Source: Luteibacter yeojuensis
Lineage (GTDB): Bacteria; Pseudomonadota; Gammaproteobacteria; Xanthomonadales; Rhodanobacteraceae
Reading direction: 5' to 3'
DNA: 64,000 nt
NCBI RefSeq assembly: GCF_000964085.1
Contig: NZ_JZRB01000009.1
Location: forward strand, 1 to 64,000
In this document: in pieces, positions 8,474-63,234 of the stretch
Numbering within the stretch: the stretch's first letter is position 1
Layout of the letters: the number at the start of each line of letters is the position of its first letter
Translations under genes and position numbers: made by a program
Notes under the pieces: generated by a model
Database searches by the model: none
Seen by the model: only the letters and a program-made list of their open reading frames with translations
What the model was told of the DNA's origin: nothing

Positions 8474-9709
8474 TTAGAAGTTCTTCGCGAACCAGCTGCG
8501 GAACTTCTCGACCACGTTGCCCACGTTGCCGACCGGCGAGTTGTTGTGGCGCACGCCGCCCGAGGCGCGCGCACCGTGCAACAGCAGGCCCACGCCCGTG
8601 GAGTGCAGTTCGCTGGAAACCACGTCGCCCAGCCCGGAGACGTGCTGCGGCACGCCGACGCGGACCATCTTGTGGAAAATTTCTTCCGCCAGTTCGAGCG
8701 CGCCCTCCATCCGCGCCGCGCCACCCGTCAGCACGATGCCGGCGGCGACGAGGCTCTCGTAACCCGAGCGGCGCAATTCGTCCTGCACCATCTCGAAGAT
8801 CTCCTCGTAGCGTGCCTGCACCGACTGGGCGAGCGCCTGGCGGGCCAGGCGACGCGGCGGGCGATCGCCCACGCTCGGCACCTGGATGGTTTCTTCGGCG
8901 TGCGCAAGCTGTGCGAGCGCACACGCGTATTTGATTTTGATCTCCTCCGCGTGAGCGGTGGGTGTGTGCACGCCATACGCGATATCGTTCGTCACCTGGT
9001 CGCCGCCCACCGGCAGCGACTTGGTGTAGCGGATGGCGCCCTGCGTGTAGATGGCGATGTCGGTGGTGCCGGCGCCGATGTCGACCAGGCACACGCCGAG
9101 CTCGAGCTCGTCTTCGGTGAGCACCGACTTCGCGCTGGCCACCGCCGCCGGCACCAGCTCATCGACCGAGAGGCCGCAGCGCTGGATGCACTTGGAGATG
9201 TTCTGCACCGCCGATGCAGCACCGGTGACGAGGTGCACGCTGGCCTCCAGGCGCACGCCGCTCATGCCCACCGGGTGGCGGATGCCGTCCTGGCCGTCGA
9301 TGCGATATTCCTGCGATTCCTTGTAGAGCACCTTGCGGTCGGCCGGGATGGCCACGGCGCTGGCGGCTTCGAGCACCTGCTCCAGGTCGGCCGCCATCAC
9401 CTCGCGGTCGCGGATGGCCGCGGTGCCGTGCGAGTTGCGGGTTTCCAGGTGGCTGCCCGAGATGGAGGCGTACACCGAGCGGATGTCGCAGCCCGCCATC
9501 AGCTCGGCTTCTTCCACCGCGCGCTGGATCGAATGCACGGTGGATTCGATATCCACCACCGAGCCGCGCTTCATGCCGCGCGAGACATGCGTGCCGATGC
9601 CGATGACTTCGATCGGTTCGCCCGGCTCGTATTCACCCACGATGGCGACCACCTTGGAGGTGCCGATGTCGAGGCCGACGACGAGCTGTTTGTCGTTCTT
9701 GTTTCTCAT
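8474..9709 (-). CDS. ftsA: Cell division protein FtsA
   Basis: Actin-like ATPase that tethers FtsZ to the membrane; 411 aa. Seen: phosphate-1 motif VGLDIGTSKVVAIVG at the N-terminus, phosphate-2 region LVDIGAGTTDIAIY near 205, GIVLTGGAARMEG adenosine motif near 325, and a C-terminal amphipathic membrane-targeting helix (VVEKFRSWFAKNF). It starts 8 bp after the ftsQ stop. Confidence 0.97.
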   Translation of the reverse strand: MRNKNDKQLVVGLDIGTSKVVAIVGEYEPGEPIEVIGIGTHVSRGMKRGSVVDIESTVHSIQRAVEEAELMAGCDIRSVYASISGSHLETRNSHGTAAIRDREVMAADLEQVLEAASAVAIPADRKVLYKESQEYRIDGQDGIRHPVGMSGVRLEASVHLVTGAASAVQNISKCIQRCGLSVDELVPAAVASAKSVLTEDELELGVCLVDIGAGTTDIAIYTQGAIRYTKSLPVGGDQVTNDIAYGVHTPTAHAEEIKIKYACALAQLAHAEETIQVPSVGDRPPRRLARQALAQSVQARYEEIFEMVQDELRRSGYESLVAAGIVLTGGAARMEGALELAEEIFHKMVRVGVPQHVSGLGDVVSSELHSTGVGLLLHGARASGGVRHNNSPVGNVGNVVEKFRSWFAKNF

Positions 9710-59810: not shown

Positions 59811-60179
59811 ATGCGCGCCAAACGCTGGGACGGGAAAAGCGGCTGCGCCGTCGAGGTGACGTTGTCGGTCATCGGCGGCGTGTGGAAGCCGGTGGTGCTG
59901 TTCCACCTCATCGAAGGCAAGAAGCGCTTCATGGAACTGACGCGGCTGGTGCCCAACGCCACGCAATCGATGCTGACGAACCAGCTACGCGAACTGGAAG
60001 CCGATGGCGTCATCACGCGGCACGTCTACCCGGAAGTACCGCCAAAGGTGGAATACGAGATGTCGGAATTCGGGAAGACGTTGATCCCGATTCTCTTGTC
60101 GATGCGTGCGTGGGGCGAGGCGTATCGGGATAGCCACGGCGACGAGGCCGTGGATGCGTCGAACTGCGGCGTGGCTTAA
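59811..60179 (+). CDS. HxlR-family transcriptional regulator
   Basis: 122 aa winged-helix regulator. Seen: the family N-terminus CAVEVTLSVIGGVWK with the conserved Cys near residue 12 (redox-sensing in YodB-like members), and MELTRLVPNATQSMLTNQLRELEADGVITRHVYPEVPPKVEYEMSEFG in pieces. The start at ATG 59811 is set by GGAG 6 bp upstream. Its TAA overlaps, on the other strand, the TAA of the truncated gst fragment inside the palindrome GTGGCTTAAGCCAC. Confidence 0.9.
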   Translation: MRAKRWDGKSGCAVEVTLSVIGGVWKPVVLFHLIEGKKRFMELTRLVPNATQSMLTNQLRELEADGVITRHVYPEVPPKVEYEMSEFGKTLIPILLSMRAWGEAYRDSHGDEAVDASNCGVA

Positions 60180-60310
60180 GCCACGTCCTTCGGCACCTGC
60201 GAAGCAAACGCCCGCTGGTACGCCGGCCGCGCTTCACCACGCGCCACGTATGCCGCCAGGTTCGGGAACTCGTGGAGGATGCCTGACATCTTCAGGCGCG
60301 ATAGCACCGA
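60176..60310 (-). pseudogene. 3' fragment of a glutathione transferase gene
   Basis: Encodes only the C-terminal ~43 residues (LKMSGILHEFPNLAAYVARGEA... to VPKDVA). 60185-60310 is a direct copy of 62605-62730 inside the intact gst (118 of 126 bases identical). The similarity stops sharply at 60310, and upstream the frame continues in unrelated sequence. Read as the left-over end of the ancestral gst after the cassette was inserted. Confidence 0.85.
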
Positions 60311-60525
60311 CCATAAAATCAAGTCAAGCTTCGGACGCCTTGATCGCGTCAACATCAAGAAAGGCTTACACGACGTCGCGGCGTACGCCTTCAACGATTG
60401 ACAGAATTCCCCGACATCGGTGGAGCAGCGGCATGTCTACGCTTCCTTGAACTTCGCGCCAAGTACGCGCGCGGACGTTCGCGCCAAGGCATTGGGGCCT
60501 TGGCGTCCATCAAGGAAGCACATTC
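60311..60525. promoter_or_regulatory. Control region of the accessory cassette
   Basis: Non-coding. Holds a direct repeat TTCGCGCCAAG (60453-60463 and 60478-60488, 25 bp apart) and a perfect 9-bp dyad CGCCAAGGC/GCCTTGGCG (60482-60490, 60497-60505) just before the RBS (AAGGAAG) of the first cassette gene. It looks like an operator; no promoter boxes are clear. Confidence 0.45.
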
Positions 60526-61233
60526 ATGCAAAAGCTCACTAAGGAAGACCGCGATCTCATTGCTGGCGGACAACACACGACCCTGCTCCCTGGCCCGAAC
60601 GTCCCGGAACCTCCGAGCATCCCCACCGACCCCGACGACCCCTCTGGCGGCATTGCCGGCGACGGCAACGGTGGCGGCGGTGGCGGCGATGGCGCTGGCG
60701 GCGGTGGTGCGGGCAACGGAGATGGCGGATCTGAGTCCTCGCAGGACAAGAGGCCGAAGTACCAGCATAAGACGCCCGGCGGCATCCCGTTCACGACGCG
60801 CGCCCTGCTCAACCATGAGCAGGTGGCGCTCGCCTCCGAGATTCTCGACTATGCCCAAGCGAGAGGAATTCGATCGGACTATGCCGGCATTCTGGTTCGA
60901 CAAGCATTCTACGAGACGTCGCTCGGCACCAATTTCCGAAACCCCACGCATATTGGTATTTTCCAGTACGGCCCGAAGACCTGGGCCGAGCGACATAACG
61001 ACCTGAACATCAATAGCCGGTCGGATCAGATCAAGGCGATGTATCGTGACGTTGAAGGATATGGTCCGCGGTATTCTGAGAAGCATAATTCGGGCGAGAT
61101 TCCTTGGCATATCTCGTTCGAGTATTACGTTGAGTTGAAGCATCATGGCGGGACGAACTTCACCGACTGGAACTCACCCTGGATCGCTGAGTACCAGGCG
61201 GCCGCTGCAAACCTCGGCTTCAACGAGTGGTAG
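60526..61233 (+). CDS. Double-glycine-leader protein with lysozyme-like domain (candidate bacteriocin)
   Basis: 235 aa, not closely recognised. Residues 1-15 (MQKLTKEDRDLIAGG) match the form of microcin V/class II bacteriocin leaders: same length, L-T near the start, acidic patch, I-x-G-G end. Such leaders are cut after GG by C39-peptidase ABC exporters. Residues 16-75 are a Pro- then Gly-rich linker. Residues 85-235 look like a lysozyme/lytic-transglycosylase fold: a candidate catalytic Glu in FYETS (E130) followed by HIGIFQYGPKTW, the usual E...GxFQ...T-W arrangement. I infer a secreted cell-wall hydrolase. GC is visibly lower than in the core genes. Start fixed by AAGGA 9 bp upstream. Confidence 0.6.
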   Translation: MQKLTKEDRDLIAGGQHTTLLPGPNVPEPPSIPTDPDDPSGGIAGDGNGGGGGGDGAGGGGAGNGDGGSESSQDKRPKYQHKTPGGIPFTTRALLNHEQVALASEILDYAQARGIRSDYAGILVRQAFYETSLGTNFRNPTHIGIFQYGPKTWAERHNDLNINSRSDQIKAMYRDVEGYGPRYSEKHNSGEIPWHISFEYYVELKHHGGTNFTDWNSPWIAEYQAAAANLGFNEW

Positions 61234-61238
61234 CGAAT

Positions 61239-61724
61239 ATGTACTTCGCCCACTGGATTGTCGCTGCGTCTAGCCTGATCACGCCGCCACCCTTGCCTTG
61301 CGATTACTCGAATGCGCACTACGAGCATTCGAGCAATCATGATTGGAAGGTGGATTTCGTTCACCTCGGACGACGCGTCTTCGCATCTGACATCGCCCTA
61401 CGCCTGACTGGCCCTGGGCCTGATGCTTCGTATTGGTTCTTGTACGATGTCGGCGCCGCTCCGCAGGTAAATCTTATTTCCACCACTGACGTAACCGCTG
61501 CCGGGTGGGAGCCACCCGACGCTGACGGTGGAATACGGCCCCTCGGACAGCTCGTGGTGTTTGCATGGAACAAGGACGACGTCATCGACCTCTCCCCGCC
61601 CGACGGGCATAACCGAGCTGCAACGGCCTTGTTTCTTCCCGGACTCAGTGACGCCTTGGCTCATAGAGCCAGCATCCGAAAGTCGTTGGAACCCGGCATC
61701 TTCAGATTCACCCATTGCAAATAG
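61239..61724 (+). CDS. Small protein of unknown function, candidate immunity protein
   Basis: 161 aa, not recognised. Starts 5 bp after the previous stop (ATG 61239; a GTG at 61227 would overlap it), so it is co-transcribed. The N-terminus has a short hydrophobic stretch and then Cys (FAHWIVAASSLITPPPLPC), which could be a weak signal peptide or anchor. The rest is mixed, with many aromatic and acidic residues. Position right behind a putative wall hydrolase and a possible export signal suggest a periplasmic inhibitor/immunity protein. This is inference from context only. Confidence 0.45.
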   Translation: MYFAHWIVAASSLITPPPLPCDYSNAHYEHSSNHDWKVDFVHLGRRVFASDIALRLTGPGPDASYWFLYDVGAAPQVNLISTTDVTAAGWEPPDADGGIRPLGQLVVFAWNKDDVIDLSPPDGHNRAATALFLPGLSDALAHRASIRKSLEPGIFRFTHCK

Positions 61725-61728
61725 GAGC

Positions 61729-61757
61729 AGTGCCCAGCCCGAACAGGGCTGGGCACT
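61729..61757 (+). terminator. Perfect 12-bp hairpin before the fic gene
   Basis: AGTGCCCAGCCC-GAACA-GGGCTGGGCACT, 5 bp after the stop of the candidate immunity gene and 7 bp before the Fic ATG. There is no T-run, so it may reduce rather than end transcription, or protect the upstream message. Confidence 0.55.
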
Positions 61758-61763
61758 CTACTC

Positions 61764-62561
61764 ATGCCCGACGCAGTGACGACTCGCCTCACGAAGGTCA
61801 TAGCACTTCCCAGCATGCTCTCCTGCGCGCAGGTACACCTCTCCAAGGCCGATAGGGCACTTCGTTCCTTCAGCCGAATTCCGGCTTGGAGAGCCTCGGA
61901 TCCCGTTAATACATGGGTACCACCCAGCCACGATGAGTTTTGGATTGCAAATCGACATCCGCTCGCATCGACACCGTCGACGACCACGTCGCCCGAGACC
62001 ATCGCCTGGCACCCGCACTCGCTTATGTCAGGTCAGGCGCTAAGTTTGCTTGGTCAACGCTTACTGGGACCTACTCTTTCGAGCTCTGCACAATTCATCG
62101 ATGTATTGAGCGGGGTCAACCGCGCAAGCGATTCGAAATCTCAGGGCGTACGACGTGTCGCGGTCGGCACGCGAGGTACCGACGGGTCTACCGTAGCGTT
62201 TCCGCCATGGCCCGACGTTATGCCTGCTCTCACATGTCTTTGGCAGTGGTTGCATCGAGCGAATGTCCCTCTTTTCGTCAGATCGACGGCCGCAATGCTC
62301 GCGATCTGCAATATCCATCCATTCGTCGACGGCAACGGCCGAGCGGCTCGCTGGCTTTTCAATACGATCATCCTTGGCGGCACCACCCCACCCCAGCGCA
62401 CGCTCCCCCTTTACGAATACTTCCATCGTGATGGCGGGACATCAACCCTGCTGTTCCGAACCGTGGAGCTTAGCGGCGATTGGGACCCGCTCTTTGCCTA
62501 CATCGCGGCGATCCTCGACGAAATGGCCTATCGAAGATCGCTCGCTAACGCATGGCTCTAG
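61764..62561 (+). CDS. Fic-domain protein (putative AMPylator)
   Basis: 265 aa. Intact Fic core HPFVDGNGRAAR (185-196): His185 as base, Asp189 for Mg, Gly-Asn-Gly-Arg for the nucleotide phosphates. The preceding flap region GVRRVAVGTRGTDGSTVAFPPWPDV also fits. Fic enzymes transfer AMP or other phosphate-containing groups onto target proteins. I see no clear inhibitory (S/T)xxxE(G/N) helix, so control may come from a separate protein or be absent. No good RBS before ATG 61764; a later start (ATG at residue 18) is possible. Lower GC than its surroundings; part of the accessory cassette. Confidence 0.75.
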   Translation: MPDAVTTRLTKVIALPSMLSCAQVHLSKADRALRSFSRIPAWRASDPVNTWVPPSHDEFWIANRHPLASTPSTTTSPETIAWHPHSLMSGQALSLLGQRLLGPTLSSSAQFIDVLSGVNRASDSKSQGVRRVAVGTRGTDGSTVAFPPWPDVMPALTCLWQWLHRANVPLFVRSTAAMLAICNIHPFVDGNGRAARWLFNTIILGGTTPPQRTLPLYEYFHRDGGTSTLLFRTVELSGDWDPLFAYIAAILDEMAYRRSLANAWL

Positions 62562-62595
62562 ATCAAGCTGCTTCGCCAATAGCGCGACGCGGCGC

Positions 62596-63234
62596 TCAAC
62601 CGCCGTCCTTCGGCACCTGCGAAGCAAACGCCCTCTGGTACGCGGGCCGTGCTTCACCACGCGCCACGTACGCCGCCAGGTTCGGGAACTCGTTGAGGAT
62701 GCCCGACATCTTCAGGCGCAGTAGCACCGAGACCATCATCAGGTCGCCGGCGCTGAACTCGCCATCGAGCCATTCGTCATCGCCCAGCCGCGCGGAGAGC
62801 TGTGCCAGGCGCTGGCGGATGCGGTCCATCACCAGCGGCAAGCGTTGCTCGGCCCACGGCTGGTCGCCTTCGGCGAAGCGCGCGCACTGCAGGTCGAGGA
62901 TGGGCGGTTCCACGCTGTTCACCGCCGCGAACATCCACATGATGGCGCGGCTGCGTGCGTCTTCGTCCCTGGGCAGCAGATGGCCGTGCTTGTCGGCGAG
63001 GTGCAGGATGATGGCGCCGGATTCGAAGAGGACCAGGTCGTCGTCTTCGTACGTGGGGATCTGGCCGAAGGGGCTGCGCGCGATGTGCGCCGGCTCCTTC
63101 ATCGCCGGGAAGGTGAGCGGGCGGATGTCGTAGTCCTGGCCCACTTCCTCCAGTGCCCAGCGCACGCGAGTATCGCGGGCCAGGCCCCTGCCGCCATCGG
63201 GCGAACGCTCGAACGCGGTGATGGTGACGGTCAT
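62596..63234 (-). CDS. Glutathione S-transferase family protein
   Basis: 212 aa from ATG 63234. Thioredoxin-like N-domain (RWALEEVGQDYDIRPL...SPFGQIPTYEDDDLVLFESGAII, with the cis-Pro and the E-S glutathione contact) and a helical C-domain (about 90-200, including GEFSAGDLMMVSVL). Its 3' 126 bp (62605-62730) are repeated at 60185-60310. The two copies end differently (VPKDGG here, VPKDVA in the fragment), so this gene's 3' end probably came in with the cassette. Confidence 0.9.
   Translation of the reverse strand: MTVTITAFERSPDGGRGLARDTRVRWALEEVGQDYDIRPLTFPAMKEPAHIARSPFGQIPTYEDDDLVLFESGAIILHLADKHGHLLPRDEDARSRAIMWMFAAVNSVEPPILDLQCARFAEGDQPWAEQRLPLVMDRIRQRLAQLSARLGDDEWLDGEFSAGDLMMVSVLLRLKMSGILNEFPNLAAYVARGEARPAYQRAFASQVPKDGG

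Follow-up and report, generated by a model that had tools for sequence, protein, structure and literature searches.

We analyzed a 64,000-nucleotide stretch of the Luteibacter yeojuensis genome (contig NZ_JZRB01000009.1, positions 1 to 64,000; hereafter the window), which corresponds to contig C134 of genome G000. Three adjacent genes on the plus strand, between positions 60526 and 62561, form a cassette encoding a putative exported toxin, a candidate immunity protein and a Fic enzyme. The toxin gene (60526..61233; ATG at 60526, stop at 61231-61233) specifies 235 amino acids (aa) and has homologues at two loci in related genomes, L019 and L020. The candidate periplasmic immunity gene (61239..61724, ATG at 61239; 161 aa) has homologues at L019, L020 and a third locus, L018, and is followed by the Fic gene (61764..62561; 265 aa). 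The coordinates, the frames and the 5-bp gap between the first two genes were as described in an earlier reading of this DNA made without database searches (the sequence-only reading). The Fic gene was likewise intact as described there, with no internal stop, and its Pfam match to PF02661 scored 44.7 bits, above the cut-off of 24.

The toxin starts with a 15-codon double-glycine (GG) leader (MQKLTKEDRDLIAGG, 60526..60570), followed by a Pro/Gly-rich linker (residues 16-84, 60571..60777) and a lysozyme-like domain (approximately residues 85-235, 60778..61230); past the GG, the mature protein would comprise 220 aa and 23.8 kDa. A search of 147 genomes of the family at a cut-off of 1e-3 returned toxin matches in six. 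Full-length proteins were present in three of these (the window genome, G062, which belongs to the same genus, and G123), G076 carried a fragment near a contig end with an internal stop, and G015 and G135 gave weak matches to the linker half. The full-length homologues at L019 and L020 share 45% and 43% overall identity with the window toxin, and the leader aligns with MRTLRPEELELVAGG and MRELSLEELELVAGG, respectively. Because the leader is kept in both homologues, a chance match was ruled out and the proposed microcin V-form leader can be taken as real. The toxin also carries the Glu, followed by G-[IL]-F-Q and T-W, that characterizes lysozymes and lytic transglycosylases; within this pattern, which the sequence-only reading had pointed out, E130, G144, Q147 and W153 were invariant in all five aligned relatives (one a partial sequence). 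Glu130, the proposed catalytic residue, is encoded at 60913-60915. Structure prediction for residues 75-235 (predicted local distance difference test score, pLDDT, 79) combined with fold comparison supported a lysozyme-superfamily fold for the C-domain, in line with the lysozyme-like assignment. Neither Pfam nor NCBIfam assigned a family to the toxin or to the 161-aa protein.

The 161-aa protein has a hydrophobic N-terminus (signal peptides were judged by eye), and Cys21 and Cys160 were invariant in all five sequences. Its homologues adjoin the toxin in L019 and L020. Two further copies lie at L018 in the window genome (5804-8475), one on either side of a GG-less lysozyme-like paralogue; no Fic gene was found within the 14 kb read at this locus. 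The protein thus looks periplasmic, as expected of immunity to a wall enzyme, and we infer a periplasmic immunity role from its gene position, N-terminus and conserved cysteines. A fold assignment was set aside because the model reached a pLDDT of 50.

To be exported by its leader, the toxin would depend on a C39-type ATP-binding cassette (ABC) exporter. In agreement with the export proposed in the sequence-only reading, the window genome contains three C39 matches. Two of them are complete C39-ABC exporters, and the last is a 243-aa peptidase frame. Both exporters are located on contig C55, in trans to the toxin, and each has an HlyD-type neighbour. One adjoins a 284-aa GG protein (L015); near the other (L016) are a GG protein of 186 aa, a 54-aa peptide made up of leader and linker, and a Fic gene. 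In the relatives the genes stand side by side: at L019 the HlyD and C39-ABC genes precede the toxin, which is followed by the immunity homologue and then Fic, and L020 shows the same order except that no adjoining HlyD was seen. The three cassette genes therefore occur together in all three full-length GG lysozyme proteins found, bearing out the suggestion that they form a unit. Taken together, these data indicate that the cassette probably encodes a secreted peptidoglycan-cutting bacteriocin exported by a C39 system, with a periplasmic immunity protein and with Fic as a producer-side accessory. A C39 exporter encoded elsewhere in the genome would remove the GG leader and export the toxin across the envelope; the lysozyme-like domain, judging by its fold and motif, would arrive in the periplasm of a competing Gram-negative cell and cut its wall, and the predicted immunity protein encoded 5 bp downstream would block the enzyme in the periplasm. 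C39 matches were present in at least 102 of the 147 family genomes, so an exporter alone is weak evidence, and its position next to the toxin in relatives is the stronger evidence.

The lysozyme-like C-domain of the window, L019 and L020 proteins is one of at least three kinds common to the GG module. The GG proteins at L016 and L157 have an NPGN-type C-domain that matches PHROG endolysins weakly (0.0019 at L016 and 0.0014 at L157), and those at L015, L052, L067 and L158 have a third kind. The latter are followed, in the usual position of the immunity gene, by a gene for a 430-439 aa protein in which Pfam recognized a retropepsin-like aspartyl protease domain (L052 7733-9040; L015 11104-12423; L158 10752-12062; L067 12829-14121). 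The 54-aa peptide of L016 (7319-7483) has no more than a GG leader, a stretch resembling a TonB box and a glycine-rich linker, and looks like what remains when a toxin domain has been lost or displaced. A single N-terminal module joined to varied C-domains, a toxin domain that recurs behind a different N-terminus (L018) and a leftover cassette (L016) are the marks by which polymorphic toxins are recognized.

The composition and flanks of the cassette were also examined. GC content at third codon positions (GC3) was 0.70 for the toxin, 0.65 for the immunity gene and 0.63 for Fic, and all five flanking genes lay above these values (0.84, 0.89, 0.79, 0.87 and 0.91). On the right flank lies a complete GST gene (GST domains by Pfam), and its 3' end (62604..62730) recurs as a partial copy on the left flank (60184..60310; 127 bp, 94% identity). 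Such a repeat on either side suggests that the segment was inserted or duplicated; within the cassette, no integrase was noticed. Other Luteibacter genomes were checked with a query that included the HxlR and GST pieces, and no clean empty site was seen because these pieces match different places. The toxin had no match among phages, plasmids or viral contigs, and a phage or plasmid source for it was set aside; a scan of 60150-62650 found no sigma-70 promoter upstream of it. The gap between the immunity gene and Fic holds a hairpin (stem of 12 bp, 61729..61757) that scored as terminator-like on the minus strand, with one such hairpin found against 1.9 expected by chance; it may give Fic an expression level separate from that of the immunity gene. 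These features bear on an alternative in which the exported lysozyme works for the producer itself, which might use it to remodel its wall, to lyse itself or to prey on cells with other wall types; the small gene would then keep the enzyme in check instead of conferring immunity in competition. A lysozyme domain by itself does not reveal its target, and small GG-leader peptides mediate autolysis in another bacterium (PMC11798529, in excerpt). However, the patchy distribution of full-length toxins (three of 147 genomes), the lower GC3, the swapping of C-domains and the leader-only copy at L016 resemble competition genes, and we consider a producer-serving role unlikely.

The Fic motif of the window (HPFVDGNGRAAR, 62316-62351) conforms to HxFx[DE]GNGRxxR. 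The His and GNGRxxR were retained in all nine cassette Fics read, with L019 departing at the acidic position, where it has Asn (HALPNGNGRLSR). The motif [ST]xxxE[GN], which is the inhibitory motif of self-inhibited Fic classes, was found in none of the nine, and its absence leaves the control of these enzymes unexplained. The cassette Fics are 265-294 aa long, compared with approximately 400 aa for most Fics among the matches listed. No cassette Fic begins with a GG leader (0/9); L019 has AGGG at residues 11-14, without the leader pattern. The sequence-only reading had raised the idea of a second effector; the missing leaders argue against one exported by the same route. Fic and Doc domains do serve as toxin domains of polymorphic toxins with other secretion routes (PMC3482391, in excerpt), and at a further locus, L057, a GG-leader-like frame (MRRLTLRELALIAGG, 9137-9680) overlaps a truncated Fic out of frame. 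The L057 arrangement looks like a decayed cassette, although the opposite reading is possible and would fit delivery of Fic to competitors. Given the missing leaders, and with no separate Fic immunity gene noticed in the cassettes read, we consider delivery of Fic as a second toxin very unlikely.

The Fic sequence of the window matched 34 of the 147 family genomes at 1e-6, and eight neighbourhoods were examined. Fic recurred in relatives with GG proteins of several C-domain types; it is therefore no incidental neighbour, and an incidental association at a single locus was rejected. A profile (A3) was then built from seven cassette Fics (window, L016, L019, L020, L052, L053 and L054). At 1e-22 it identified 14 loci in 11 of 233 family genomes and three additional loci in 398 genomes of the order, whereas in 369 genomes of the class the matches outside the window genome were looser (E 3e-21 or weaker) and fell in frames of 324-553 aa, mostly approximately 400 aa. 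Seven of the 17 loci had built the profile. Among the 10 others, L055-L059 had been seen before A3 was built and excluded as lacking a cassette, so only five loci (L157, L158, L171, L172 and L173) were truly unseen. At L157 and L158, a GG protein, a C39-ABC exporter, an HlyD-like neighbour and a partner gene accompany Fic. L171 has a GG protein 1.2 kb from Fic on the opposite strand, and no exporter in the 10.7 kb read. At L172 and L173, Fic adjoins a C39-type exporter and no GG protein was found; the C39 part of the L172 exporter lacks the first 25 profile positions, which presumably would include the catalytic Cys. Neither a GG protein nor an exporter was present in the stretches read at L055, L056, L058 and L059; L055 and the L015 exporter locus share a contig and are approximately 8 kb apart. 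L055, L056 and L058 carry another short Fic form (LHPF.DGNGRVGR), which at L056 and L058 adjoins a 271-aa protein with MLATIPRSGST, sulfotransferase-like by eye. Two other Fic-family genes with frames of approximately 147 aa (G024:C1:1149785 and G048:C9:88994) lie approximately 5-8 kb from C39 exporters.

To examine the association from the exporter side, we surveyed 73 C39 exporters with frames above approximately 600 aa among the matches listed, a limit that applies to all counts from this survey. GG proteins were located by pattern and, at 11 exporter loci, also by reading open reading frames. The pattern gave no GG match at 34 of 72 loci, so large GG proteins may have been missed elsewhere. 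Large GG proteins (approximately 180 aa or more) were present at at least 12 loci (L015, L016, L019, L020, L052, L053, L054, L067, L073, L076, L080 and L085), and the short-form Fic occurred at 6 of these 12 compared with 0 of 25 loci with only smaller GG matches. Cassette-type Fics were found at at least six surveyed exporter loci, L116 being the L020 Fic seen again. An automatic Fisher test of Fic against large GG proteins gave P = 0.0097, a value that included false large matches (e.g. L065, L089, L102, L106, L107 and L114) and left L019 and L054 uncounted; an earlier count of 6/9 large versus 0/25 small loci (6e-5) predates the rise to 12 large loci. In a quick tree, the six Fic-bearing exporters and three then-known large-GG exporters fell in one 21-row branch (support 95). 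The Fic label was scattered inside this branch and clustered no better than in shuffles: the tree needs five Fic-label changes, a number equalled by 72 of 500 shuffles, and a single clade of Fic-bearing exporters was rejected. Thr at position 3 past the GG was also discarded as a mark of Fic linkage, being too weak (6/10 Fic-linked versus 2/6 other large GG proteins).

The survey also addresses whether Fic, as an addiction or defence module, is carried along by mobile cassettes and is functionally unconnected to the toxin. The cassettes look mobile, with low GC3, repeats, and insertion sequence genes in the vicinity of L053 and L085; half of the 12 large-GG loci have no Fic; and PF02661 is common, occurring in at least 99 of the 147 family genomes. 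In contrast, the ordinary Fics of these genomes are of a different, longer form, the short form is absent from all 25 small-GG-only loci, and all five loci first found by the profile adjoin a GG protein, a C39-type exporter or both. No cognate antitoxin gene was recognized, and the inhibitory motif is absent from all nine Fics. We regard an addiction or defence role as possible but doubtful. As a producer-side accessory, Fic would remain in the cytoplasm of the producer and be optional. Because it accompanies varied C-domains and has no recognizable leader, a shared substrate inside the producer is the simplest guess, and our tentative first choice for its job is nucleotide modification of a part common to the toxins, or of the exporter.

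The route into the target cell was considered through a TonB-box-like motif located shortly after the leader in several relatives. A profile was made from 22 boxes chosen by eye from 29 receptors of the window genome (30 requested), with seven receptors dropped, including L152 despite its box-like DTVVVTS. Nine of 16 large or Fic-linked GG proteins had a motif at shuffle P < 0.05 (e.g. LPPITVTA in L015 and LDTIVVNG in L052), although these P values overstate the case because the motif was noticed before testing and the sequences are related. The threshold was not reached by the window toxin (score -1.7, P = 0.73) or by L020, L073, L080, L085, L157 and L158. No small GG peptide (n = 25; 22 residues each) scored above 6.0 with the profile, which was their best value. 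The motif may mark entry through TonB-dependent receptors, or it may be a TonB-box lookalike in the linker; the window toxin has no recognizable motif, and Pfam recognized no receptor-binding domain in it. A rather speculative extension makes Fic a maturation enzyme that, before C39 cleavage, would modify one Ser, Thr or Tyr residue of the shared N-terminal region (or of the exporter) with a nucleotide, after which the TonB-box-like N-terminus would carry enzymes with swappable domains into the target periplasm.

Pesticin combines a TonB box with a lysozyme-fold domain. The window toxin resembles pesticin and the colicin M type in its proposed periplasmic attack on peptidoglycan metabolism and its periplasmic immunity, but it has neither a TonB-box-like motif nor a visible receptor-binding domain, and for want of the motif we did not class it with them. 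Colicin-M-type immunity candidates in Stenotrophomonas and Luteibacter likewise carry two cysteines, and release of such colicins needs lysis, unlike the dedicated GG/C39 export proposed here (both PMC5821083, in excerpt). With class II microcins, the toxin shares a 15-residue GG leader close to the microcin V leader MRTLTLNELDSVSGG (PMC10231218, in excerpt), a C39-ABC exporter with an HlyD-type partner and an adjacent candidate immunity gene. It differs in its enzyme-like domain, its Fic partner, the exporter in trans in the window genome, and its size: the 220-aa mature part exceeds the 60-90 aa of class II microcin cores (PMC10233263, in excerpt), and the cargo described for C39 exporters of Gram-negative bacteria consists of small peptides under 10 kDa (PMC10231218, in excerpt). 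Polymorphic toxins offer the parallels of a shared export module, varied C-domains, downstream partner genes and variants such as L018 and L016, although an N-terminal module that is a C39-type GG leader is not among the routes described in the excerpts of Zhang et al. 2012 (PMC3482391). The Fic belongs with the Fic/Doc family (PF02661) by its intact motif, and the cassette Fics depart from it in their shorter length, the missing inhibitory motif and the Asn of L019. On sequence grounds, we class the cassette among the polymorphic toxins, as a variant with proposed GG/C39 export in which the toxin carries an enzyme-like domain and Fic is an optional partner.

No publication joining Fic with GG/C39 bacteriocins was found by title or abstract in open-licence PMC (subscription papers and preprints were outside this scope). 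If Fic does modify the toxin or the exporter, the Fic family would gain a new function and bacteriocins, to our knowledge, a new kind of modification. Here, C39 exporters appear to serve wall-cutting enzymes of the 20-kDa class with interchangeable domains, which would link microcins to polymorphic toxins.
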